From contig CAIVFQ010000151.1 in NCBI GenBank assembly GCA_903905285.1, positions 1 through 15,945 on the forward strand: a DNA stretch of 15,945 bases, in the 5' to 3' direction. The stretch's first letter is position 1, and each line of letters begins with the position of its first letter. Of this stretch, positions 479 through 15,717 are shown piece by piece. The DNA is from an uncultured Alphaproteobacteria bacterium. Lineage in GTDB: Bacteria; Pseudomonadota; Alphaproteobacteria; Paracaedibacterales; CAIULA01. Both the position numbers and the translations under genes were made by a program. The notes under the pieces are model-generated. The model searched no databases. It was not told the origin of the DNA and saw nothing but the letters and a program-made list of their open reading frames with translations.

Positions 479-1668
479 AAGACAAGCGGCACCTGAATAG
501 GAAGTGTGCCGCCACCTTGCAAAGCTTGATAAAGTCTAACCAACGCCCAGTCAAGCTCTTCATGGGTGATAACCAATGGCGGGGCCAAACACACCACAGT
601 CTCGCTAGGGGCGCTTGCCAAAATCCCCATATACATAAACTGCTCACAAAGCGACTGCGCCGTACGCCAAGTGGGTTCTATCTCGATACTAATCCATAAT
701 CCTTGACTCCTGATGTCATGGATATAAGGCGAATCAATGTGACGCAAACGATTTAAGAAATACTCGCCCAATTCTGCACTGCGTTCAGCCAAGTTTTCTT
801 CTTTCAAAGCCTGTAAAGAAGCAAGTCCAATGGCGGCTGCAAACGGGCTTCCTCCAAAGCTAAATTCACAACCCGTTGGTTTTAGCAACGACAATAAATC
901 ATGCCGACCGGCAAATGCTGACGTGCTTAAGAATCCACCCCCCAGGGCTTGCCCTAAAATCACCCCGTCCGGTTGAACATTTTCATCACGACACGCCAGT
1001 ATTTTTCCAGACCGCCCAAGACCCGATTGACCCTCATCAAGAATAAGCAACACGTTATTCTCTTTGCAAAGGGTGGAAATTTCAGCCAGCCAACCTTTAG
1101 GGGGAAGGGTTAAACCTGCTTTATCTTGAATAGATTCTGTGAGCACAGCACAGGTGTGCGGGGTAATCGCCTTTCTTAGCGCCCCATAATCACCAAACGG
1201 AACGTTTCGAAAGCCAGATGAACAATTGGTTAGTCCAAAAGATCGCCCTTGAAAATCGCGCTTGGTCGTAATAATTTCTATTTGATCATCCTGAATGCCT
1301 TTTCTCTGACATCCCCAAAGCCGCACCGCCTTAACCGCCGCTTCCATAGCCTCAACGGTTGACGTCATAAGCACAGCCTTATCCATCCCCGTCATCAAAC
1401 ACAGCATCTCTAAGCAAGATGACAGCTGATCATGATGAAAAGTATGAGAACATAGACTTAAGCGACCAGCTTGGCCCAACAAGGCGCCAAGAATTTTAGG
1501 ATGACAATAGCCATAATTGAGTGTTGCGCACGCAGAATTCATGTCTAAATACCGCCGGCCTTCTATATCCCACAGCCACACCCCCTGCCCCCGATTCAAA
1601 ACAACCGGCAAGTCAGCATCGGTTTGCACAGACCATTTGGCCTCGTGCTGTATCCAATCTTTCATCAT
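475..1668 (-). CDS. class III (ornithine aminotransferase-like) aminotransferase lacking the PLP lysine; probable pseudoenzyme
   Basis: A 397-residue intact ORF with the fold-type I class III aminotransferase layout, closest to ornithine aminotransferase (OAT). Matches include the VEAMEAAVKAVRLWG block (about 105-119), GRSFG (141-145), LDEGQSGLGRSGK (210-222, with the PLP-N1 Asp at 211), EFSFGGSPFA (268-277), the EENLAE block (290-295) and APPLVI (362-367). The motif that should read LGKAL, with the Schiff-base lysine, reads LGQAL: residue 240 is Gln (codon CAA, plus-strand bases 949-951). The Glu and Arg that form the OAT active-site gate (Glu235 and Arg413 in human numbering, from memory) align with Lys183 and Cys360, and the N-T-G phosphate loop reads T-S-T at 102-104. 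Normal PLP transamination is therefore unlikely, yet no stop or frameshift is present. Two consecutive ATGs (1668, 1665) could start it; neither has a clear Shine-Dalgarno. The natural substrate is unknown. Confidence 0.8.
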   Translation of the reverse strand: MMKDWIQHEAKWSVQTDADLPVVLNRGQGVWLWDIEGRRYLDMNSACATLNYGYCHPKILGALLGQAGRLSLCSHTFHHDQLSSCLEMLCLMTGMDKAVLMTSTVEAMEAAVKAVRLWGCQRKGIQDDQIEIITTKRDFQGRSFGLTNCSSGFRNVPFGDYGALRKAITPHTCAVLTESIQDKAGLTLPPKGWLAEISTLCKENNVLLILDEGQSGLGRSGKILACRDENVQPDGVILGQALGGGFLSTSAFAGRHDLLSLLKPTGCEFSFGGSPFAAAIGLASLQALKEENLAERSAELGEYFLNRLRHIDSPYIHDIRSQGLWISIEIEPTWRTAQSLCEQFMYMGILASAPSETVVCLAPPLVITHEELDWALVRLYQALQGGGTLPIQVPLVF

Positions 1669-2368
1669 AAAGAAAGACCCGCTGTTGTCAGGTGGTAAGC
1701 TTCGGCAGAATGAATGACGAACAGATGGCGCATTAAGAACAATTTTTTTTAATGTGAAATAATGTCTTTATTGCACCACAGGCAAACGCCAATGACAATA
1801 TTTAAATAAAATTTTAGTCAAATATCTCAATAGGGTTTTCCAAGAACCAGCTTAAAGGGGACTGGCTTAAAAGCCTCTGTACCTGGACGGGTCTATTCCA
1901 AAACACAAAAGCACAAGATCCCAACAACTCTTTTCTGCGCGCGACTCAGTAGCGCGTCCACCCGAAAAGAAAAACGATTTAACAACATCATGCCCTTGGG
2001 AGTCAGAATCAGAAGACGCTTGAGCCGGATGTAGTGTCTGTGTGTGCGCACCATGAAAACCATCCACCCAAGGATCCCCCCCATAGCTATAAGCCCCACA
2101 TCACCTGCAGAGACCCTCAACATCATGGCCAAAATAATGCCAAAACTACGCAATATCATCAAACGCTACCTTTACGAATTTTCTACAAAGCAGACTATAA
2201 ATATTTTAAGTAAAATTTCCTAGATCAAAACACGTACACCCAATAGATTCCGAAATCGATTAGGTATATGTTACATTGTGCTTCTTTTCAAAATCAAAAA
2301 AGGAAACCTAGACACTGTTTTCATCTAACCTCATTAGCATTCTTTTCGGCGAAAATTTTAGCCAGCGA
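1669..2368. other. largely non-coding divergent intergenic region
   Basis: About 700 bases between the minus-strand aminotransferase and the plus-strand addB, so it must hold promoters in both directions. The parts near both ends are AT-rich (for example 1741-1820 and 2180-2310). I see no tRNA, rRNA or known ncRNA. The only coding candidate is the small minus-strand ORF at 1893-2159. I could not identify a promoter here with enough match to consensus to call one. Confidence 0.5.
1893..2159 (-). CDS. small hypothetical membrane protein (doubtful)
   Basis: Possible 88-residue protein starting at ATG 2159 (a TTG sits one codon upstream). An AAAGG sequence 9 bases before the ATG (minus strand) is a reasonable ribosome binding site, which is the main reason to list it. 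The N-terminal part, about residues 1-37, is hydrophobic with one or two possible membrane segments (one around VGLIAMGGILGWMVFMV); the rest is basic (RTHRHYIRLKR). I recognise no family. It may be a small inner-membrane protein, or a chance ORF in a degraded intergenic region; an overlapping ORF in another frame is equally open. Low confidence. Confidence 0.25.
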   Translation of the reverse strand: MILRSFGIILAMMLRVSAGDVGLIAMGGILGWMVFMVRTHRHYIRLKRLLILTPKGMMLLNRFSFRVDALLSRAQKRVVGILCFCVLE

Positions 2369-5086
2369 TTGGTTGATATGCTTATTAACCAGGCCACCTC
2401 ACCCCTTGACTTGGCGCAAACGTTAATTTTGGTGCCAAACCACCGCGCTATTCTTAGTTTGAAAAATATTTTCCTAAAAAGGGTTCCTGAAGAAAGCCTT
2501 CTGTTGCCAAAAATTGTGTCGTTAAATGATTTGGGCGATCACAACCCTTTGGGGATCATGCCCATCGATAACCTGCCCAAAAAGGTAGATTCCTGCAAAC
2601 GGTTAGGCGTTCTAAGTCAGCTGATCCTTAAATTCCCAGGATATAAGTCAACGCCTCAGGCCTTAAAAGCGGCCCAATTATTGGGCACGATTTTAGATGA
2701 AATACAACGGTGGGGACTCGATGTCGAAAAAATGGAAACCGTCGTCAGCACTGACTATGCTGAACACTGGCAATTAAGCTTAGAGTTTCTGAAAATTGTT
2801 ACCCACCAATGGCCCTCTATTTTACAAGAAGAAGGAGTTATTGACGGTCAAACCCGTACTCACCAGGCCCTGGAAACCATATCGGCCTATTGGACACAAC
2901 ACCCGCCATCGCATCGTGTCGTTATCGCCGGCTCAATTGGGGCCACCCCTGGCATCGCCACCTTAATGAAAACAGTTCTGGCCTTGCCACAGGGGCAGGT
3001 TTTTCTGTATGGTCTGGATTCAAGTGACTTGTCTTATTCACTCCCCCATCCCCAACATGTCCTCCAAAAACTGTTAAGTTTTGTGGGCCTTTCTTGTGCT
3101 GACATTTGCTTTACAAAACCAACCAACCATTTAAGCACCGATCGTCATCAGCTTGTCCACACGGCAACGGGCAACCAAGACTTAACGGTAACAACGTCAC
3201 CCAACCATTGGCCGCAAATGATTGCCTGCAGCAATTTGCAACAGGAAGCCAAAGTCATTGCCCTTATCATGCGCCAAGCCATTGACACAACAACCGGCCC
3301 CATTGTTTTGGTCACACCCAACCAGAGCTTAGGCCATTGGGTCGAACAAGAATTGGCCCGTTGGAACTTAACAGCGAATCAATCCGACGGCCTTAAACTG
3401 GCCGAAACACCCCCCGCGCGATTCATGCTCAGTGTGGCCAATTACCTGCAGAACCCAACGACGGGGGGCTTGTTAAGCATTCTGAAACATCCCTTTTGTG
3501 CCAAAGCCTGCAACAGGCAAACCCATTTAGAAACCATCCGATCCTTAGAAATTAAGGTTATTCGCCGTCAGGGTTTTGAGTTTGAGACTTTAAAACAATC
3601 GTCAGAGTATATAAGTGAATACATTGATATCCTTTGTTTTCCCAATACAGCGACAGACTTGAATAATTTCCTTAATCATCACATCGCAATCTGTGAAAAA
3701 TTAACCGGGGACACTACTGAGGCTTGCCCCCTATGGCAACAGGCCGATGGCATCGCCTTAAAAGATTTTCTAAACAACCTTAAAATCCAAGCTGGCCACT
3801 TTCCCCCTGTTTCAACACAAACGTATGCAGGGGTTTTTAGAACCCTGCTTGACCAGGCAGAGGGGCTGCATAATACAAAAGGTATTGGGTCACGTCTTTC
3901 CATAGTAGGAACGTTTGAATCGCGCCTCAGTGAAGCAGAGGTTATGATCTTAGGCGGCCTGAATGAAGATAGCTGGCCCCAAGCCCCCCAAGAAAATCCT
4001 TGGTTGAACCGCGCCATGCGCCAACAAATGGGCCTGCCTTTACCGGAATGGTATATAGGGTTATCAGCGCACGACTTTTGGAGCTGCTTTTATGCTCCTC
4101 AGCTTTTTTTAACGCGAAGCTTGGAAGAGAATGGCACCCCAACACTCGCCAGCCGTTGGTGGCAACGGTTAGAGGCTGTCTATGTAAAAAACCAACAGCA
4201 CCTTGCCACAGCGCCAACCATGCCTTGGCAGGAATGGGCCAACCAGCTGATAGCTTCTGAATCCATCGACCTCCTCCCTCCGGCTCCCTGCCCACCTGTG
4301 GATGCCCGTCCTAAATGCCTGTATGTGACAGAGGTTGAACGCCTCATGCGCGACCCTTATGCCGTCTACGCAAAACATTGTCTGGGTCTTAAACCGTTGC
4401 CGTCTTTGGTTGAGGATTCCCTCGCTTTAAAAAGGGGTCAGCTGATCCACACTGTTTTAGATCAGTATATTAAAGAACATGGCGGTTTAGACCCTGATCT
4501 AGATCAGCTGTTGAATTTTGCTTACCCTTACTTTCAAAAAAATCATACCAGTCGCACTTTTTGGTGGCAGCGATTCCAAAATATAGGGGCCTGGGTGATT
4601 AATGAATTACAAAACGCCCCAGCCCTGCAACGGCTTAGCGAACATAAGGGGCATGCTTCCCTTATGGTTGGAAACCATGTCATTGACATTAAGGCAATTG
4701 CTGACCGAATTGATCTTATGGAAAATCACGTCAGTGTTATTGACTATAAAACAGGGGGTGTGCCCAGTTTGAGAGACATGAAACAAGGACTTTCCCCTCA
4801 GCTGGGGTTAGAGGCTTGGATGGCTTATCGTCAAGGGTTCTCGTTACTAAATGATGGTCCGATTAAAGCGGCTTTGTGGCACCTGACGGGGCAAAATCCA
4901 GCCGGAAGAATGATTAACTTAGAAATCACGGAAGAGTTTTTAGACGAGACAGAAAAGGGCTTATACAACCTTTTCAACACTTTCTTGAACGAACAAACAC
5001 CGTACTTGGCTTGCCCCAATCCCGAAAACGCCCCCACTTACAATGATTACAGCCACCTAGAGCGACTTAAAGAATGGCAGGGGTAA
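2369..5086 (+). CDS. addB: double-strand break repair protein AddB (helicase-nuclease subunit B)
   Basis: AddB pairs with AddA in the cytoplasmic AddAB complex, which processes double-strand ends for RecA loading. This is the alphaproteobacterial form: the N-terminal LILVPNHRAILSL takes the place of a Walker A motif. A conserved block MILGGLNEDSWP...ENPWLNRAMR...GLSAHDF lies at about 525-570, then VTEVERLMRDPYAVYAKH at about 653-670. The C-terminal PD-(D/E)XK nuclease has GQLIHTVLDQY (about 690-700), ADRID (778-782) and DYKTG with Asp792 and Lys794. The TTG at 2369 is the first common start codon in frame but has no Shine-Dalgarno. Coding resemblance continues upstream (NLISILFGENFSQRL, typical of AddB N-termini), and the frame stays open to a TAG at 2309-2311. 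The true start may be a CTG at 2315, behind AAAAAAGGAAA at 2296-2306. addA follows after 1 base. Confidence 0.93.
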   Translation: MVDMLINQATSPLDLAQTLILVPNHRAILSLKNIFLKRVPEESLLLPKIVSLNDLGDHNPLGIMPIDNLPKKVDSCKRLGVLSQLILKFPGYKSTPQALKAAQLLGTILDEIQRWGLDVEKMETVVSTDYAEHWQLSLEFLKIVTHQWPSILQEEGVIDGQTRTHQALETISAYWTQHPPSHRVVIAGSIGATPGIATLMKTVLALPQGQVFLYGLDSSDLSYSLPHPQHVLQKLLSFVGLSCADICFTKPTNHLSTDRHQLVHTATGNQDLTVTTSPNHWPQMIACSNLQQEAKVIALIMRQAIDTTTGPIVLVTPNQSLGHWVEQELARWNLTANQSDGLKLAETPPARFMLSVANYLQNPTTGGLLSILKHPFCAKACNRQTHLETIRSLEIKVIRRQGFEFETLKQSSEYISEYIDILCFPNTATDLNNFLNHHIAICEKLTGDTTEACPLWQQADGIALKDFLNNLKIQAGHFPPVSTQTYAGVFRTLLDQAEGLHNTKGIGSRLSIVGTFESRLSEAEVMILGGLNEDSWPQAPQENPWLNRAMRQQMGLPLPEWYIGLSAHDFWSCFYAPQLFLTRSLEENGTPTLASRWWQRLEAVYVKNQQHLATAPTMPWQEWANQLIASESIDLLPPAPCPPVDARPKCLYVTEVERLMRDPYAVYAKHCLGLKPLPSLVEDSLALKRGQLIHTVLDQYIKEHGGLDPDLDQLLNFAYPYFQKNHTSRTFWWQRFQNIGAWVINELQNAPALQRLSEHKGHASLMVGNHVIDIKAIADRIDLMENHVSVIDYKTGGVPSLRDMKQGLSPQLGLEAWMAYRQGFSLLNDGPIKAALWHLTGQNPAGRMINLEITEEFLDETEKGLYNLFNTFLNEQTPYLACPNPENAPTYNDYSHLERLKEWQG

Positions 5087-8631: not shown

Positions 8632-10608
8632 ATGACAATTCCCCCCAACGACTTAGCCAATGCCATCCGTTTCCTAAGCCTTGATGCTGTCGAAAAATCA
8701 GCCTCGGGCCATCCGGGCATGCCCATGGGCATGGCAGACGTTGCGACGGTTTTGTTTAAAGACTTTCTGAAGTTTAACCCGTTGGATGCAGCCTGGGCCA
8801 ACCGCGATCGGTTTGTGTTATCAGCGGGTCATGGATCGATGCTGTTGTACAGTTTGCTGTACTTAACAGGCTATCCTGATTGTACTTTGGATCAGATCAA
8901 GTCTTTTCGCCAATGGGGAAGTTTAACCGCTGGACACCCTGAATATGGTCACATGCCTGGCATTGAAACCACCACAGGCCCTTTGGGCCAGGGGTTAGCC
9001 ACCGCCGTGGGCATGGCCTTGGGTGAACGGTTGATGAACGCCCGTGTAGGTGATGAATTAATTAATCATTTCACCTATGTCATCGCCAGCGATGGAGACT
9101 TGATGGAGGGCATCAGCCAAGAGGCCATCTCGTTAGCGGGGCATTTGCGCCTTCATAAACTGATTGTGTTATTTGACGATAACGACATTACCATTGATGG
9201 CAGCACGCGCTTATCAACCTCTGATGATGTGTTGCAACGCTTTCAGGCCAGTGGGTGGAAGGCGATGCGCATTGATGGTCATGATCCGGCACAAATTCAT
9301 CATGCCCTCAGCCAAGCTCAAACCCATGATCGGCCAACCCTGATTGCGTGCAAAACGACCATCGCCAAGGGGGCGCCTACTAAGGCCGGCACCTCAGCCA
9401 GTCACGGCAGTCCTTTAGGGGCTGCAGAAGTCGCTGCAACTCGGGAAGCTTTGGGTTGGCCATACCCCCCCTTTGAAATTCCCGAGATGGTTTTGGCTGA
9501 ATGGCGAACCATTGGTCAGCGTCACCAACAATCCTATCACCAGTGGCAAAGTCATTATCAAAAGGCAACGTCCCAGCAAAAAGAAACCCTTGCCGGTGAA
9601 ATGGGAACGCAGTGGCACCAGCACCTTGATCAACTAAAAGAAAATTTCACCAAAGAACACCCCAAACAAGCCACCCGCCAATTATCACAAACAGCTTTAG
9701 AAACCTTGGTTCCTGAATTACCTTGCCTGATAGGGGGATCGGCCGACCTAAGCGGTTCGAACAATACCAAAACAAAAACCCACCATGCTGTTACAGTCGA
9801 AGATTTCAGCGGCAACTATGTGAATTATGGTATTCGCGAACATGGCATGGCCGCCGCCATGAACGGGTTATCGCTGTATGGAGGGTTCATCCCTTACGGC
9901 GGCACGTTTTTGGTGTTCAGTGATTACCTGCGTCCTGCCCTTCGGTTATCGGCTTTGATGCAACAAGGGGTTATTTATGTACTGACCCACGATTCGATTG
10001 GTTTGGGTGAAGATGGCCCAACTCATCAACCGATTGAACATCTAGCCAGTCTGCGCGCCATTCCCAACCTAAATGTTTTTAGACCAGCCGATGGCGTTGA
10101 GGTTGCTGAGTGTTGGCAATCGGCCTTAGAACAACGCAAAACCCCCTCAATCTTAGTCCTGAGTCGTCAGGCGATTACGCCGTTCCGTTTCCATGCTGTT
10201 GAGAATTTATGTGCCAAGGGTGGATATGTAGTACGGGGAGATGCGTTAACATCCCAGGTGGCTTTAATCGCCACAGGGTCAGAGCTTGGTATTGCCCTTG
10301 ATGCTCACGAACAATTGACAGAGAAAGGCATTCAAAGCCATGTGGTTTCCCTGCCTTGTTGGCGTCTGTTTGATCAACAGCCAGAGGCATACCGACAGCA
10401 GGTTTTGGGCCAAGGCTTACGGATCGCGATAGAGGCCGCCAGCGCCTTTGGCTGGTCATGCTATTTAAGACACGACGATATTTTCATAGGCATGAATGGC
10501 TTTGGCGCCTCCGCGCCTGCCAGCGCTCTTTACGAACAGTTCGGCATAACAGCGAATCATGTGATTCAGAGGGTTCAGGAAAAACTTTTAGAAAAGGACA
10601 AAAAATGA
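8632..10608 (+). CDS. tkt: transketolase
   Basis: Thiamine-diphosphate and Mg-dependent transfer of two-carbon ketol units, linking the non-oxidative pentose phosphate pathway to glycolysis. From ATG 8632 the protein is 658 residues, close to the family norm of about 660. Visible landmarks: SGHPGMPMGMAD (25-36), SAGHGSMLLY (64-73), GHPEYGHMPGIETTTGPLGQG (101-121), the ThDP/Mg motif SDGDLMEG...DDNDITIDG (153-190, with Asn184), and GIREHGM (400-406) with catalytic Glu403. A GTG at 8605 would add nine residues inside trxA; I prefer the ATG because MTIPPNDLANAIRFLSLDAV is the usual transketolase N-terminus. There is no strong ribosome binding site, so coupling to trxA is likely. The stop overlaps the gap start (ATGA). 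Confidence 0.97.
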   Translation: MTIPPNDLANAIRFLSLDAVEKSASGHPGMPMGMADVATVLFKDFLKFNPLDAAWANRDRFVLSAGHGSMLLYSLLYLTGYPDCTLDQIKSFRQWGSLTAGHPEYGHMPGIETTTGPLGQGLATAVGMALGERLMNARVGDELINHFTYVIASDGDLMEGISQEAISLAGHLRLHKLIVLFDDNDITIDGSTRLSTSDDVLQRFQASGWKAMRIDGHDPAQIHHALSQAQTHDRPTLIACKTTIAKGAPTKAGTSASHGSPLGAAEVAATREALGWPYPPFEIPEMVLAEWRTIGQRHQQSYHQWQSHYQKATSQQKETLAGEMGTQWHQHLDQLKENFTKEHPKQATRQLSQTALETLVPELPCLIGGSADLSGSNNTKTKTHHAVTVEDFSGNYVNYGIREHGMAAAMNGLSLYGGFIPYGGTFLVFSDYLRPALRLSALMQQGVIYVLTHDSIGLGEDGPTHQPIEHLASLRAIPNLNVFRPADGVEVAECWQSALEQRKTPSILVLSRQAITPFRFHAVENLCAKGGYVVRGDALTSQVALIATGSELGIALDAHEQLTEKGIQSHVVSLPCWRLFDQQPEAYRQQVLGQGLRIAIEAASAFGWSCYLRHDDIFIGMNGFGASAPASALYEQFGITANHVIQRVQEKLLEKDKK

Positions 10609-11609
10609 CAATAAGAGTTGCAATTAATGGATTTGGGCGCATTGGGCGCATGGTCTTACGAGCCTTGGCAGAATCAAACCGCGAAGACATTCACATTGTG
10701 GCCATTAACGATTTGGGTTCAGCCGCAACGAACGCCCATTTGTTGCAATACGACTCTGTTCACGGTCGTTTTCCCAAACCCATTCACGTTACGGATCATA
10801 CCTTAGACGTTGGGCTGGGTCCCATTCACCTTTTGGCCGAACCGAATCCAGAGAAATTACCCTGGGCAAAACATAATATTGACTTGGTGTTTGAATGTTC
10901 CGGCAGGTTCACCAAACGCGACGATGCGGCTAAGCATTTAACGGCTGGTGCCAAACGCGTGTTGATTTCAGCTCCGGCTGAGAATGCAGACATTACCGTT
11001 GTTTATGGCGTTAATCATCAAAATATTCAAAAGGATCATCTGATTTTATCGAATGCCTCGTGCACCACCAATTGCTTAGCACCCCTGGCAGCTGTGTTAC
11101 ACAAAGCCGTCGGCATTGAGTGTGGTTACATGACGACGATTCATTCCTACACCGGCGACCAACGACTGGTTGACACCCTTCACAGCGACCTAAGACGGTC
11201 ACGAGCTGCGGCTTTATCGATGATTCCCACATCAACAGGCGCTGCCAAAGCTGTTGGCCTGGTCTTGCCCGATTTAAAAGGCAAACTGGATGGCACATCT
11301 ATTCGCGTTCCTACCGCCAATGTTTCTGTGGTTGATTTTAAATTTAACAGCTTGAAACCCACCGCCGCCGCAGCCATTAACGAAGCCTTGCGACAAGCCG
11401 CCCAAGGGCACTTGAAAGGCGTTTTAAATGTGGTTGATGTCCCGTTGGTATCATGTGACTTTAATCACGACCCTCACAGTTCCATTGTTGATCTTGAACA
11501 GACCCAGGTTGTGGGCGATAAATTCTGCCGCGTCCTGTCATGGTATGACAATGAATGGGGCTTTTCGAACCGCATGTTAGATGTGGCATCTTATATAAAA
11601 GGGCTTTAG
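10605..11609 (+). CDS. gap: type I glyceraldehyde-3-phosphate dehydrogenase
   Basis: A 334-residue phosphorylating GAPDH converting glyceraldehyde 3-phosphate to 1,3-bisphosphoglycerate. The Rossmann motif INGFGRIGR is at 7-15, and AINDL with Asp36 at the end of the second strand favours NAD. SNASCTTNCLAP at 149-160 carries catalytic Cys153, and His180 in MTTIHSYTGDQRLVD is its partner. The phosphate-site region SMIPTSTGAAKAVGLVLP and the C-terminal YDNEWGFSNRMLDVA are all present. The ATG at 10605 overlaps the tkt stop by 4 bases with AAAAGGAC just upstream, so the pair is co-translated. In many alphaproteobacteria pgk follows tkt-gap; here a roughly 560-base gene-free region and then the folate operon follow instead. 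Confidence 0.97.
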   Translation: MTIRVAINGFGRIGRMVLRALAESNREDIHIVAINDLGSAATNAHLLQYDSVHGRFPKPIHVTDHTLDVGLGPIHLLAEPNPEKLPWAKHNIDLVFECSGRFTKRDDAAKHLTAGAKRVLISAPAENADITVVYGVNHQNIQKDHLILSNASCTTNCLAPLAAVLHKAVGIECGYMTTIHSYTGDQRLVDTLHSDLRRSRAAALSMIPTSTGAAKAVGLVLPDLKGKLDGTSIRVPTANVSVVDFKFNSLKPTAAAAINEALRQAAQGHLKGVLNVVDVPLVSCDFNHDPHSSIVDLEQTQVVGDKFCRVLSWYDNEWGFSNRMLDVASYIKGL

Positions 11610-12079: not shown

Positions 12080-12124
12080 GGAGGAATCATTGACAGCCTC
12101 GTAAACGTTGTTTAGGATTCCTCC
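12080..12124. promoter_or_regulatory. 9-bp inverted repeat bracketing the folate-operon promoter (candidate operator)
   Basis: GGAGGAATC (12080-12088) and its exact complement GATTCCTCC (12116-12124) are separated by 27 bases. The left arm abuts the -35 box and the right arm overlaps the -10 box. This geometry would suit a repressor or bridging regulator, but no regulator gene is in the window. An alternative local hairpin, ATTCCT-TAGG-AGGAAT (12072-12087), uses the left arm. Confidence 0.4.
12090..12118 (+). promoter_or_regulatory. sigma-70-type promoter of the folate operon
   Basis: Exact -35 TTGACA (12090-12095), a 17-base spacer and -10 TAGGAT (12113-12118, 4 of 6 matches to TATAAT). Transcription would start near 12125, about 43 bases before the folB GTG. 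Placement directly before the operon supports the call. Confidence 0.6.
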
Positions 12125-12167: not shown

Positions 12168-12581
12168 GTGTTTAATTTCAACAAAACTTTTTTCAAACTT
12201 TCAATATCAGATTTACGAATCTGGGTTCACCTTGGATGTACAGACCAAGAGAAATTTCACGCTCAGCTTGTTAGCTTTACGATCGACTTAGTGTTCAAAG
12301 CTCCGCCAAAAGCAATTGCGAGCGATAGACTTGAGGACACTGCTTGTTACTTTAAGATTGTTCAGGATATTAAATCTCTTTGCCAAAGAACGCCTTTCAA
12401 TCTCATCGAACGCCTTACAACTGATGTTTACAAAGCCATAGATGTCTCTTTGGGTGGTCAAAAATCCCTTATTTCTTTTATTAACGTTACAACGCATAAA
12501 ATAGCGCCACCAGTCCAGGACGTCCACGGTGGCGTTTCTTTTACGTATTGTGATGCGCCTTCTAAGGTGAAAGAGCCATGA
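12168..12581 (+). CDS. folB: dihydroneopterin aldolase
   Basis: Converts 7,8-dihydroneopterin to 6-hydroxymethyl-7,8-dihydropterin plus glycolaldehyde. The 137-residue protein shows the FolB pattern: ISDLRIWVHLGCTDQEKFHAQ (13-33, with the family's Glu at 28), SDRLEDTACYFKI (52-64), FNLIERL (77-83, Glu81) and INVTTHKIAPPV (105-116, with the catalytic-type Lys111). Chlamydiae carry a divergent form of this gene, folX, at the head of the same cluster. The start is GTG 12168; no ATG lies in frame before the upstream stop at 12147-12149, and no Shine-Dalgarno precedes the GTG. It is the first gene of the operon, with its promoter at 12090-12118, and it overlaps folKP by 4 bases (ATGA). Divergence from standard FolB is noticeable but the key residues remain. 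Confidence 0.87.
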   Translation: MFNFNKTFFKLSISDLRIWVHLGCTDQEKFHAQLVSFTIDLVFKAPPKAIASDRLEDTACYFKIVQDIKSLCQRTPFNLIERLTTDVYKAIDVSLGGQKSLISFINVTTHKIAPPVQDVHGGVSFTYCDAPSKVKEP

Positions 12582-13849
12582 TTTATATTAGCATAGGCTC
12601 CAACTTAGGAAACCGTATCGGCAATCTAAGACAAGCTGTCGATTTACTCAAAAAACGTTACTTAAGAAATGTTCGTTGTTCTATTGTATTGGAAACGACG
12701 TGCATTTTACCAAATGATGCCCCGTCATCTTGGAATAAGCCGTTTTTAAACATGGTGGTCACGGGCGAAACAGACTTATCACCAGAGCAGTTGCTTGTAG
12801 GGCTAAAGTCAATAGAGTCTGAATTGGGACGCCCCAAAGAGTATGAAAGATGGTCGCCTCGCATCATTGATTTGGATATTCTTTTGTGGGGGGATCTTAA
12901 ATTAGAAACGCCCCAACTTAAAATTCCGCACCCTGAATTGGAAAATAGGCCCTTTTTATTACATCTGCTGGCTCTGTTAGGGGTAGATTTTCTCAATAAT
13001 ACAATCTTTCATAATTGTTTCTTAAAGAGTTTGGTTTTATACCCCCAGTTTGTCGGAATCGTTAACATTACGAATGATTCTTTCTCAGATGGGGGGCAAT
13101 TTAACAAACCCGATCAGGCGATTGCACAGGTTCTTAAACTTGCGGCAGAGGGAGCCAGTGTCATTGAAGTAGGCGCCCAGTCCACAAGACCTGGCGCAAT
13201 CATACAAACACCCGATGAAGAATATACCTACTTAGAACCTGTCTTAGAGGCGCTTAAGCCCTTGGCACAGCAGGGGAACATAACGCTCAGTTTAGATACA
13301 TTTTGGCCATCGGTCATTCGTGATGCCCTTGATCACTACCCTATTTCATGGATTAATGACGTAAAGGGCGACCTTGATGATAAGACGTTAAAATTTATCG
13401 CTGAACGGGATTGTAAAGTGTGTCTAATGCATTCTTTAGGAATTCCCCCACGAGCAGACGTTATTTTGCCACCCGATCAAAGACCGATGGACGTCATAAT
13501 CCAGTGGGCTCAGAAAAATATCGACCGTCTTCTTAGCCTTGGGTTTAAACCCAACAACATCATCATTGATCCAGGTATTGGTTTTGGAAAGTCTATTTAC
13601 CAAAGCATAGAAATTTTACGACATCTTGACGCATTAAAAACACTCAACACCCAAATACTTATTGGGCATTCAAGAAAATCTTATATAGAGGCTTTCTCGG
13701 CAGAAAAAGCAGCACAGAGAGATTTAGAAACAATTGCTATTTCGGCAACTTTAAAACATAAAGTCGATTTTTTGCGTGTCCATAACGTGGCCGATCATAT
13801 GCGTTTTTTCGCAGCCTACGAGACCTTCACGGAAAGATATCAAACATAA
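12578..13849 (+). CDS. folKP: bifunctional HPPK-DHPS fusion (FolK-FolP)
   Basis: A 423-residue fusion that pyrophosphorylates 6-hydroxymethyl-dihydropterin and then condenses it with pABA to dihydropteroate. The FolK domain (about 1-135) has SIGSNLGNR (5-13), PKEYERWSPRIIDLDILLWGD (86-106, Mg ligands Asp98 and Asp100) and IPHPELENRPFLLHLL. The FolP domain (about 155-415) has GIVNITNDSFSDGG (160-173), VGAQSTRPG (198-206), SLDTFWPS (238-245), INDVKG (259-264), CLMHS (282-286), IIIDPGIGFGKS (328-339), IGHSRKSYIE (362-371, Lys367) and RVHNV (400-404). The AQSTRP form in place of the common GESTRP, and RVHNV in place of RVHDV, are variants. FolK-FolP fusion in this order is typical of chlamydiae and eukaryotes and not of free-living alphaproteobacteria. 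It overlaps folB by 4 bases and folA by 1. Confidence 0.94.
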   Translation: MIYISIGSNLGNRIGNLRQAVDLLKKRYLRNVRCSIVLETTCILPNDAPSSWNKPFLNMVVTGETDLSPEQLLVGLKSIESELGRPKEYERWSPRIIDLDILLWGDLKLETPQLKIPHPELENRPFLLHLLALLGVDFLNNTIFHNCFLKSLVLYPQFVGIVNITNDSFSDGGQFNKPDQAIAQVLKLAAEGASVIEVGAQSTRPGAIIQTPDEEYTYLEPVLEALKPLAQQGNITLSLDTFWPSVIRDALDHYPISWINDVKGDLDDKTLKFIAERDCKVCLMHSLGIPPRADVILPPDQRPMDVIIQWAQKNIDRLLSLGFKPNNIIIDPGIGFGKSIYQSIEILRHLDALKTLNTQILIGHSRKSYIEAFSAEKAAQRDLETIAISATLKHKVDFLRVHNVADHMRFFAAYETFTERYQT

Positions 13850-14340
13850 TGAACATTGTAGGGATCATGGCTGCAACGGCAACAGGGGTAATTGGAAAGG
13901 ATAATGGCTTACCTTGGAACTATCCTGAGGAACTGGATCACTTTAGAATGCTGACAAAAGGTCACAGGATGATCATGGGCCAAAGAACCTTTGAAACAAC
14001 ACCAACAGACCTTTTTTTAGAGAGAACGCCAATTGTTTTTTCTCAAGAGGATTCTTTTAAAAACCCTTATGGCTGCACTGTTAGGGACCTAGAAGAATGC
14101 CTTACCCTTATACAAACCTTTCAGGATTCAGGAAAAATTTTCATGATTGGGGGTGCAGAGATTGCCCATTTATTTTTAGAGGCAGCCTTAATATCCTCCT
14201 TCATCTTAACGAAAATTCATCATCCCTACCCTGGAGATACATACTTGAATCTGAAATTTTTTGAGGGGTGGAGCGAAGAAATTTTGACCTCAAACCTGCT
14301 TTATACAATTATCCATCTAACACCAAAGGACACACCATGA
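13849..14340 (+). CDS. folA: dihydrofolate reductase
   Basis: Reduces 7,8-dihydrofolate to tetrahydrofolate with NADPH. A 163-residue protein of normal DHFR length. IMAATATGVIGKDNGLPWNYPEELDHF (6-32) holds the substrate pocket, with Glu28 where E. coli has Asp27. HRMIMGQRTFET (39-50) and FMIGGAEIAHLFL (98-110) are the NADPH-binding blocks, and TKIHHPYPGDTYLN (121-134) is the C-terminal signature. The ATG overlaps the folKP stop by one base (TAATG), and the stop overlaps the next ATG (ATGA). The family is clear. The sequence is shorter at the SIGRPLPGR position (reads TPTDLFLERTPIVFS), as in many divergent DHFRs. Confidence 0.94.
   Translation: MNIVGIMAATATGVIGKDNGLPWNYPEELDHFRMLTKGHRMIMGQRTFETTPTDLFLERTPIVFSQEDSFKNPYGCTVRDLEECLTLIQTFQDSGKIFMIGGAEIAHLFLEAALISSFILTKIHHPYPGDTYLNLKFFEGWSEEILTSNLLYTIIHLTPKDTP
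14325..14330 (+). promoter_or_regulatory. ribosome binding site deciding the CADD start
   Basis: AAAGGA with a 6-base spacer before ATG 14337. It selects this ATG over the in-frame 14268 start, which would add 23 residues lying inside folA. Confidence 0.7.
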
Positions 14341-14993
14341 CAATTTGCCAAATTCTTGATTCATCCCTTGAGTCTCTGCATTTATTGAAGCACCCTTTTT
14401 ACCAAGCATGGAACGAAGGCCACCTTAGTACCGAGACATTAAAAACATACGCGAAAGAATACTACCATCATGTGGCGGCCTTTCCCCGTTATATAAGCCA
14501 AATTCACACCTTATGTCCCGATATAAAAGCACGGCAAATCTTGCTAGAAAATTTGATTGATGAGGAACAAGGCAAAGACAACCACCCCGACCTTTGGATG
14601 CGTTTTGCAGAAGGACTAGGGATTTCCAGAGAAGAAACCGACCAACCAGCCTTGTTGCCCACAACGTCTGGCCTTGTTGAGGGATACTTTGATTTGGTCA
14701 AAACTGATTACGCAACCGGCCTTGGGGCCCTTTATGCTTATGAACGGCAAACGCCCGCCGTTTCTCGGTCTAAAATTGAGGGGTTAAAAAAGCATTACGC
14801 TATAACTGATGAAAGAACCTTGGAATTTTTTACGGTTCACCAAAAAACCGATGAATGGCATACCGCAGAACTTGCTGGCTTACTGGAAAAGCTTGGCCCC
14901 GCTGAACAAGAAAAAGGCGCTCAAGGGGCTCAAAAAGGAGCTCACCTGTTGTGGTCATTTCTTGATGGGATGATGAGCATCCATGCACATTAA
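14337..14993 (+). CDS. CADD-type self-sacrificing p-aminobenzoate synthase (TenA/PqqC-like fold)
   Basis: A 218-residue helical protein of the CADD family (chlamydial CT610). CADD replaces PabA/B/C by making p-aminobenzoate from its own side chains with a dinuclear metal site and O2. Aligned by eye with C. trachomatis CADD (offset 5-6 residues), all six metal ligands can be placed: Glu76, His83, Glu136, His168, Asp172 and His175, in the DEEQG...NHPDLW, YERQ and HQKTDEWH motifs. The tyrosines reported as important (27 and 43) correspond to Tyr22 and Tyr38, and the lysine reported as amino donor (152) to Lys146. It lies directly between folA and a FolC2-like gene, which fits pABA supply. The alternative, a PqqC- or TenA-type enzyme, is unlikely: no pqq or thiamine genes are near. 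The last 11 bases overlap the next gene. Confidence 0.9.
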   Translation: MTICQILDSSLESLHLLKHPFYQAWNEGHLSTETLKTYAKEYYHHVAAFPRYISQIHTLCPDIKARQILLENLIDEEQGKDNHPDLWMRFAEGLGISREETDQPALLPTTSGLVEGYFDLVKTDYATGLGALYAYERQTPAVSRSKIEGLKKHYAITDERTLEFFTVHQKTDEWHTAELAGLLEKLGPAEQEKGAQGAQKGAHLLWSFLDGMMSIHAH

Positions 14994-15717
14994 AGCAATC
15001 AAAACACATCGAATTGATCAACATAACTCCTTACAAGAGACGCTAGACCAGTATATCACCCAGGTTTCAAATGAGGATATATTGCTTATAACCTCGAAGA
15101 TTTTGAGCATCATGCAGGGCCGATTGATACGCAAAGAGGCGATTGAGAAATATGCGCTTATATGCCAAGAAGCAGACGCAGTGCTTGAAAGCGATCAAAA
15201 TCCTTATGATCTTTATTTAACCATCAAAAATGGCATTCTGATTCCCTCTGCTGGGATAGATGAATCTAATGGAAACGGGGTGTATATTTTATATCCTGAA
15301 AATATTCAAAAAACGGCTACTTGGATATGGTCGTATTTAAAAGAGAAGCATCATATTCAAAAACTTGGCATTGTGATTACAGACAGCCATACAACCATTA
15401 TGCGACGGGGAGTGACTGGTATTGCCCTTGGATGGTGTGGGTTCACTCCTCTTTATTCTTATATTAACAAACCAGACCTTTATGGTAGCCCTTTACGCGT
15501 AACCCAAGTGAATATTCTGGATTCGTTGGCAACAGCGGCTGTTTTTGTCATGGGCGAAGGAAATGAACAAACCCCCTTTTCCATCATTAAAGATGCCCCT
15601 AAAATTTCTTTTCTTGACCGTCCTCCTACTTTAGAAGAAGAGGAAAGCATCAAAATTCCGATGGATGAAGATTTGTATGCCCCCCTTCTTATGGGGGCAA
15701 AATGGATCAAAACATAA
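14983..15717 (+). CDS. CofE-like (COG1478) folate:glutamate ligase, FolC2 type
   Basis: A 244-residue member of the F420-0:gamma-glutamyl ligase family, orthologous in context to chlamydial CT611, which has been shown to replace FolC. The likely role is adding glutamate to dihydropteroate or folates. Family motifs: LLITSKILSIMQGRLI (34-49), NGILIPSAGIDESNG (83-97), LGIVITDSHTTIMRRGVTGIALGWCGF (128-154), where canonical CofE has an ISDTFGRPWR-type sequence, and LDSLATAAVFVMGEGNEQTP (179-198). No other F420 genes are seen, so deazaflavin cofactor synthesis is not supported. The start overlaps CADD by 11 bases without a strong ribosome binding site, consistent with coupled translation. In Chlamydia this gene precedes CADD; here it follows it. 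Confidence 0.88.
   Translation: MHIKAIKTHRIDQHNSLQETLDQYITQVSNEDILLITSKILSIMQGRLIRKEAIEKYALICQEADAVLESDQNPYDLYLTIKNGILIPSAGIDESNGNGVYILYPENIQKTATWIWSYLKEKHHIQKLGIVITDSHTTIMRRGVTGIALGWCGFTPLYSYINKPDLYGSPLRVTQVNILDSLATAAVFVMGEGNEQTPFSIIKDAPKISFLDRPPTLEEEESIKIPMDEDLYAPLLMGAKWIKT
15678..15699 (+). repeat. 7-bp hairpin over the ribosome binding site of the next ORF
   Basis: TGCCCCC, 8-base loop, GGGGGCA. The right arm is the G-rich sequence just before ATG 15702. Ribosomes finishing the FolC2 gene would open it, so it could enforce coupling. Confidence 0.35.

Follow-up and report, generated by a model that had tools for sequence, protein, structure and literature searches.

Five genes of folate synthesis, folB, folKP, folA, a gene for a CADD-type self-sacrificing p-aminobenzoate (pABA) synthase and folC2, form one tightly overlapping operon on contig C151 of an uncultured alphaproteobacterium. 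From comparison of sequences, this operon probably serves to build folate out of a salvaged dihydropterin and pABA of its own making, and has probably spread laterally among alphaproteobacteria. The stretch analysed (the window; 15,945 bases) is the whole of C151 and belongs to a 1.65-Mb draft genome (G000; 217 contigs) that is rated 100% complete. G000 lies in family f1 of an order with 42 genomes in the genome collection, kinship being throughout as given by the collection's own grouping. One member of this order, G396 in family f3, is identical in sequence to a metagenome-assembled genome (MAG) labelled Candidatus Finniella inopinata, and NCBI places the genus Ca. Finniella in Holosporales, Ca. 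Paracaedibacteraceae. The window organism, sharing its order (though not its family) with this MAG, is thus a Holosporales-type alphaproteobacterium, and its kinship suggests an intracellular life.

The four gene junctions from folB to folC2 overlap by 4, 1, 4 and 11 bases, respectively (Table 1); an earlier note on this DNA had read overlaps of 1-11 bases and five folate functions in one operon, and both readings are borne out, the latter by Pfam and NCBIfam profiles. FolKP is a single 423-aa protein with HPPK (105 bits at 3-132) and Pterin_bind (192.9 bits at 160-402) domains. FolB passed Pfam and TIGR00526 and, at 59.6 bits, fell below the TIGR00525 equivalog cut-off of 72.15. The CADD start at 14337 sits within a longer open reading frame (14268-14993); the protein matches Pfam Haem_oxygenas_2 (99.5 bits), NCBIfam TIGR04305 (above its cut-off of 200), C. 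trachomatis CT610 (1rcw) and chains named 4-aminobenzoate synthase. FolC2 matches Pfam F420_ligase (120.2 bits) and narrowly passed TIGR04132 over the whole protein (cut-off 350), while its identity as the F420 ligase CofE was rejected (TIGR01916, 112.4 bits; cut-off 180.65). The same five genes occur in identical order in at least seven further loci (L035, L077, L078, L079, L087, L208 and L147, the last with a split folC2), and the cluster is therefore no chance product.

Table 1. Genes of the folate operon and a promoter-like site in the window
Feature	Coordinates	Strand	Basis
folB, dihydroneopterin aldolase, 137 aa, GTG start	12168..12581	+	Pfam FolB 59.8 bits
folKP fusion, HPPK + dihydropteroate synthase, 423 aa	12578..13849	+	Pfam HPPK, Pterin_bind; TIGR01496 + TIGR01498 above cut-off
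folA, dihydrofolate reductase, 163 aa	13849..14340	+	Pfam DHFR_1 100.8 bits
CADD-type self-sacrificing pABA synthase, 218 aa	14337..14993	+	TIGR04305 302.9 bits; conserved residues
folC2, CofE-like dihydrofolate synthase / folylglutamate ligase, 244 aa	14983..15717	+	TIGR04132 352.6 bits
promoter-like site TTGACA-17-TAGGAT	12090..12118	+	consensus scan; 50 bases upstream of folB; weak

The activities of these enzymes in the organism are predicted from family membership and conserved residues. FolB and the FolK half of FolKP would convert dihydropterin to hydroxymethyl-dihydropterin diphosphate, and CADD would excise its own tyrosine as the source of pABA, a lysine donating the amino group; as the pABA would derive from CADD's own residues, neither chorismate nor PabABC would be needed. 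The FolP half of FolKP would then join the pterin diphosphate and pABA, FolC2 would add glutamate in place of FolC, and FolA would reduce the product to tetrahydrofolate. The pterin would most likely be salvaged from the host, as no known GTP cyclohydrolase was found in G000: profile searches of this genome for FolE (GTP cyclohydrolase I), FolE2, RibA and TrpF found none of them, so that the source of pterin would be either the host or an enzyme of an undescribed kind.

The gene content of G000 is consistent with this pathway. HPPK and dihydropteroate synthase (DHPS) are present in one copy each, both in the window operon. No chorismate-binding enzyme (PF00425; hence neither PabB nor TrpE) was found in G000, PabA and PabC not having been searched for, and no FolC, the best match (33 bits; cut-off 162.65) being taken for a Mur ligase. 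CADD and FolC2 thus appear to fill real gaps, as the earlier note had supposed.

The 42 genomes of the order were searched by profile for eight families (FolE2 was searched for in G000 alone). CADD above cut-off (8 genomes) and chorismate-binding enzymes (13 genomes) never occurred together (chance 0.036), nor did FolC above cut-off (19 genomes) and FolC2 (14 genomes, 10 above the TIGR04132 cut-off and 4 at 296-348 bits; chance 1.5e-5), both chance values ignoring kinship. DHPS was found in 21 genomes, all of which except G388 have a chorismate-binding enzyme or CADD; in the 21 genomes that lack DHPS, chorismate-binding enzymes are missing throughout and CADD occurs once (G403), and seven of the eight CADD-positive genomes also have DHPS. 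FolE accompanies the separate FolP in 17 of 17 genomes and the FolKP fusion in none of four (G000, G393, G395 and G399). Ten genomes (G330, G394, G396-G398, G408 and G418-G421; for example, L041, L167-L170, L172 and L174-L177) have FolC2 with neither DHPS nor FolC, and FolC2 is therefore probably also a ligase for salvaged folate. In nine of the 42 genomes DHPS, FolC and FolC2 are all missing, including G405 (83% complete), which is of the same genus as G000. A pterin bypass by RibA and TrpF, reportedly used by Chlamydia, was rejected: RibA was found in three of the 42 genomes and TrpF in none, and neither was found in G000. Four further genomes of the order (G404, G403, G387 and G386; loci L209, L210, L211 and L212, respectively) carry a CADD of another clade, with the other four genes not found in the fetched 12-14 kb; they have folC and folE elsewhere in the genome and no chorismate-binding enzyme. 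Judging from the sequences, CADD in these four is a separate gain.

In CT610 the sacrificed residues are Tyr27 and Lys152, a Tyr141/Tyr170 pair sets the metal choice, and three His and three carboxylates serve as metal ligands (PMC11965152). The window CADD, aligned to CT610, keeps both sacrificed residues (Tyr22 for Tyr27 and Lys146 for Lys152); among the 29 CADD proteins compared the lysine is present in all and the tyrosine in 27, the remaining two being truncated at the N end. In the same alignment the protein keeps all six ligands, as E76, H83, E136, H168, D172 and H175. At CT610 position 141 the window protein has Tyr, as do all 29 rows. Position 170 is Phe in the window protein and in every other non-chlamydial row (27 of 27) and Tyr in both Chlamydiae rows (2 of 2); hence the window CADD is not of the chlamydial form. 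NePabS of Nitrosomonas europaea, another self-sacrificing pABA synthase in which Phe takes the place of Tyr170, differs in having Phe also at the position of Tyr141 (a Phe/Phe pair, Fe/Fe) and in lying outside any folate cluster, and an engineered F148Y variant (the position of Tyr141) is about equally active with Fe/Fe and Mn/Fe (PMC11965152). By likeness to this variant, the window CADD is predicted to accept Fe/Fe or Mn/Fe; it is a natural CADD with the Tyr/Phe pairing that the accessible part of PMC11965152 knows as an engineered variant. Two Wolbachia loci have a damaged CADD beside open frames of folB, folKP, folA and folC2: in L093 (wStur) two metal ligands and the N end are lost, and in L089 (Wolbachia of Onchocerca ochengi) the gene is broken.

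Related loci were collected by a FolC2 scan of the genome collection (at least 509 relatives, the best 80 of which were kept) and by a class-wide draw of 385 genomes, in which CADD was above cut-off in 10 and FolC2 above cut-off in three (>190 bits in 14). One of the nine other CADD loci of the draw, L035 of genome G134, holds the five genes in the same order (identities to the window of 57, 58, 54, 64 and 65%); the other eight gave no match to the window FolB, FolKP, FolA and FolC2 in the fetched 8-18 kb, the CADD gene of one of them (G119) standing at a contig end. The order folB-folKP-folA-CADD-folC2 was also found in Rickettsia (L077 and L147, in the latter with folC2 split between two frames), a Rickettsia MAG (L078), Ca. 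Megaira (L079), L087 (G399) and L208 (G395), while L075 and L088 begin inside the operon at a contig end. For L078 and L079 the identity to the window is 58-74% over the whole length of four proteins and 54% for FolA. CADD comes first, ahead of folB, in Wolbachia and a Rickettsiales MAG (L090, L093, L099 and L123); in L076, L091 and L092 no CADD was found with folKP, folA and folC2; and a Rickettsiaceae MAG (L095) has folA-CADD-folC2. The torix type is named for Rickettsia RiCNE (L075) in PMC5656822, and the label is extended here to the other Rickettsia rows from tree position. That paper reports folC absent and the folate pathway reduced in RiCNE, yet L075 (NZ_MWZE01000118.1) carries FolKP, FolA, CADD and FolC2, so the pathway is fuller than stated there. 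Outside these groups, FolC2 of Cardinium cBtQ1 (L103) groups at 99 with two MAG proteins (L106 and L109), the fetched 20 kb containing no match to FolKP, and FolC2-like ligases of candidate-phyla bacteria (Gottesman-, Roizman- and Levybacteria; L107, L108, L110, L112, L115 and others; 43-50% identity) are frequent among the best 80 of the at least 509 relatives, with no FolKP beside the ligase in the fetched stretches.

Trees were built with Chlamydiae represented by MAGs and no C. trachomatis row. The window FolC2 joins five Rickettsia/Megaira rows (support 95) in a quick tree of 66 rows, built after removal of the split L147 and of 23 named rows, most of them from candidate-phyla bacteria; Chlamydiae are not remote here, and their separation from alphaproteobacterial rows is unstarred. 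In a careful CADD tree (29 rows of at least 200 bits; the broken L089 excluded) the window again groups with Rickettsia/Megaira (95/93), the two Chlamydiae lie across a branch of ~1.7 changes per column, for which the program warns of a long-branch meeting, and G403, G404, G386 and G387, of the same family or order as the window, form a separate clade. The FolKP tree (44 rows; long-branch warning for L138) divides the fusion proteins from the order's separate FolP proteins, 17 rows in all (100/99), a split that rests on the DHPS part, as many rows fill less than half of the columns; chlamydial FolKP is remote from that of the window. The window FolB is nearest to Rickettsia rows and its FolA to L088 by path and to a Rickettsia row by identity.

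Concatenation of the five proteins (22 rows) placed the window with the Rickettsia/Megaira rows and L091 (96/99). After removal of four long or gappy rows (L083, L091, L092 and L095), the window was sister to six Rickettsia/Megaira rows (99/99), with G134 next (99/100). As it lies outside the Rickettsia/Megaira clade (100/99) and is not nested in it, either direction of transfer is possible. Approximately unbiased (AU) tests on these 18 rows rejected three groupings of the window: with the f3 operons of its own order (p-AU 3.6e-6), with Chlamydiae (0.016) and with Wolbachia (8e-94). The first of these rejections puts the operon tree in conflict with organism kinship. On this sequence evidence, the operon would not have been simply inherited within the order, and would share its closest common source with that of torix-type Rickettsia and Ca. 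Megaira.

The earlier note had cast Chlamydia as the partner, proposing an exchange of the operon between the window lineage and an intracellular, chlamydia-like bacterium, its last two genes being swapped, and had expected all five trees to place the proteins next to Chlamydiae. The lateral history stands, on the tree positions and the rejected sisterhood with f3; the chlamydial partner is extremely unlikely. The same five functions are indeed clustered in Chlamydiae, with folB-folKP-folA-folC2-CADD in a MAG (L094), and chlamydial FolC2 (50-58% identity to the window) lies little below many alphaproteobacterial ones (55-65%). Yet Chlamydiae are far off in CADD (by the long branch) and FolKP, fall outside in the concatenation, are rejected by the AU test and have their own residue at CADD position 170; the window's CADD, FolC2 and concatenation go with Rickettsia/Megaira, and FolA and FolB are indecisive. 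Nor is the end of the operon a private rearrangement, folA-CADD-folC2 being usual in torix Rickettsia, Megaira and related alphaproteobacteria. The test that the note had set against its own proposal, placement among ordinary alphaproteobacterial homologues, gave a divided outcome: the FolKP fusion stands apart from the order's ordinary separate FolP proteins, but does not lie beside Chlamydiae either. Vertical descent from a common ancestor of Rickettsiales and Holosporales-type bacteria, with loss in most lines, is unlikely too: several lines of alphaproteobacteria do have the operon (Rickettsiaceae, Wolbachia, G134, f3 and the window), and others have parts of it, but the window and f3 do not group as sisters although they share an order, and 17 genomes of that order have an ordinary separate FolP in a distant clade.

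Two other explanations concern the operon's function and its source. If FolC2 and FolA served folate salvage and CADD another role, such as the host-cell death role first ascribed to it, there would be no synthesis route. FolC2 does occur without DHPS in 10 of the 14 FolC2 genomes of the order, but in the window folB and folKP are uninterrupted frames that overlap the genes beside them, CADD has lost neither the sacrificed Tyr and Lys nor any of the six metal ligands, and DHPS accompanies CADD in all but one of the CADD-positive genomes of the order, which makes this explanation quite improbable. That the contig comes from an organism other than the rest of G000 would fit a fragmented draft and the lack of operon genes in the same-genus G405; against it, the contig's parts, at a G+C of 0.41-0.49, overlap in this value with seven stretches of the genome (0.38-0.46), and the stated contamination is 0.34%, and we hold misbinning to be very unlikely.

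Several observations nonetheless weigh against synthesis by a laterally spread operon. The FolKP tree leaves the window's place within the fusion clade open (nearest rows, Rickettsia), the FolA (32 rows) and FolB (17 rows) trees give no starred placement, and L095, from a Rickettsiaceae MAG, falls away from other Rickettsiaceae in FolC2, CADD and the 22-row concatenation. The AU groupings with f3 and Wolbachia were chosen after the single-gene trees, that with Chlamydiae being set by the earlier note. Base composition shows nothing foreign (operon G+C 0.415 vs 0.429 for the seven readable genome stretches together), and a recent foreign insertion was rejected on this count. The mutual exclusion of CADD and PabB is by itself weak at its chance value of 0.036, the genomes of one order not being independent, and G405, the other genome of the genus, has none of the eight searched families above cut-off. 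As G000 is a 217-contig draft in which one of eight sampled stretches is N throughout, single gene absences are no proof, and a gene could sit in a gap.

Beyond the operon, the window holds genes read from the sequence as addAB, trx and tkt, together with gap, phasin and aminotransferase genes identified by profile searches; the trx-tkt-gap stretch has a G+C of 0.491. No tRNA lies in the window, and a tRNA-borne insertion was rejected; no mobile gene was recognised among the eight window proteins scanned. Flanks differ by lineage, among chosen neighbours: aconitase, bacA and a glycosyltransferase in L087, a short-chain dehydrogenase and uvrC in L035, a desaturase in L079 and L078, and an ABC transporter and lpxD in L147. 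A shared chromosomal place marked by the GAPDH gene was considered and not counted, this gene adjoining the operon in the window and lying ~3.3 kb off in L087, in the other orientation and with other genes between. Perhaps by coincidence, one 10.9-kb contig of G119 (L034) carries, like the window, tkt and gap (687-3721) and CADD (10121-10768), though with yebC and ruvC beside CADD. Promoter-like sites in the region are in no excess (11 vs 10.2 expected in shuffles), while terminator-like sites number 10 vs 4.5 in shuffles.

That CT610 homologues cluster with folABKP in both Chlamydia and Wolbachia was published in 2007, together with complementation of E. coli folC by CT611 and the presence of folKP without folE or folE2 in both genera, which is the same pterin gap (PMC1971073). 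CADD is described as degraded in almost all rickettsiae, in a paper whose authors state that they left regain by lateral transfer unexplored (PMC5615194), and folate synthesis as functional in most bed-bug symbionts, including Wolbachia (PMC12710357); the word folate is not in the main text of PMC9098888. No paper on the transfer of the operon, or on its presence in Holosporales-type bacteria, was found, in a search without most subscription papers and preprints. Among known systems, the torix Rickettsia/Ca. Megaira cluster (L075-L079 and L147) is the closest, with the same gene order in L077, L078, L079 and L147 (L075 is cut by the contig end and L076 lacks CADD) and a sister position in the FolC2, CADD and concatenated trees; the host lineage differs, and the window stands outside that clade. 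The Wolbachia cluster (L093, L099 and L123, with L090) has the same five genes but differs in the leading position of CADD and in forming a separate clade. The C. trachomatis cluster with CT610 (CADD) and CT611 (FolC2) shares the functions and the five-gene clustering (PMC1971073, PMC11965152), and differs in having folA-folC2-CADD, as in L094, in Tyr instead of Phe at CADD 170, and in the remoteness of CADD and FolKP in the Chlamydiae MAGs.

A parallel is offered by BOOM, the biotin operon of intracellular microbes, likewise a vitamin operon of intracellular bacteria whose tree is at odds with species kinship (PMC7750005); the vitamin is another, and mobile-element flanks are reported for BOOM, none being seen in the window among the eight proteins scanned. 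That the present operon is a folate counterpart of BOOM, a pterin-salvage module travelling as a unit among intracellular alphaproteobacteria and drawing on host dihydropterin and self-derived pABA, or else on an undescribed family of GTP cyclohydrolase, is a tentative reading to which we give somewhat less than an even chance; it is suggested by carriers in the order that lack FolE and by the absence from G000 of every GTP cyclohydrolase and chorismate-binding enzyme searched for.

In place of the chlamydial story, the operon would be a shared kit of intracellular alphaproteobacteria with a lateral history. The CADD/FolC2 route to folate, mostly told as a chlamydial oddity, would then be common to several intracellular alphaproteobacterial lines, and within one order it alternates cleanly with the standard genes. 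Two questions may thereby become testable. One, which PMC1971073 asks of Chlamydia and Wolbachia, is the source of pterin in organisms with folKP and no folE; the other is whether folate synthesis came back to Rickettsia lines by lateral transfer, which the authors of PMC5615194 state that they left unexplored.

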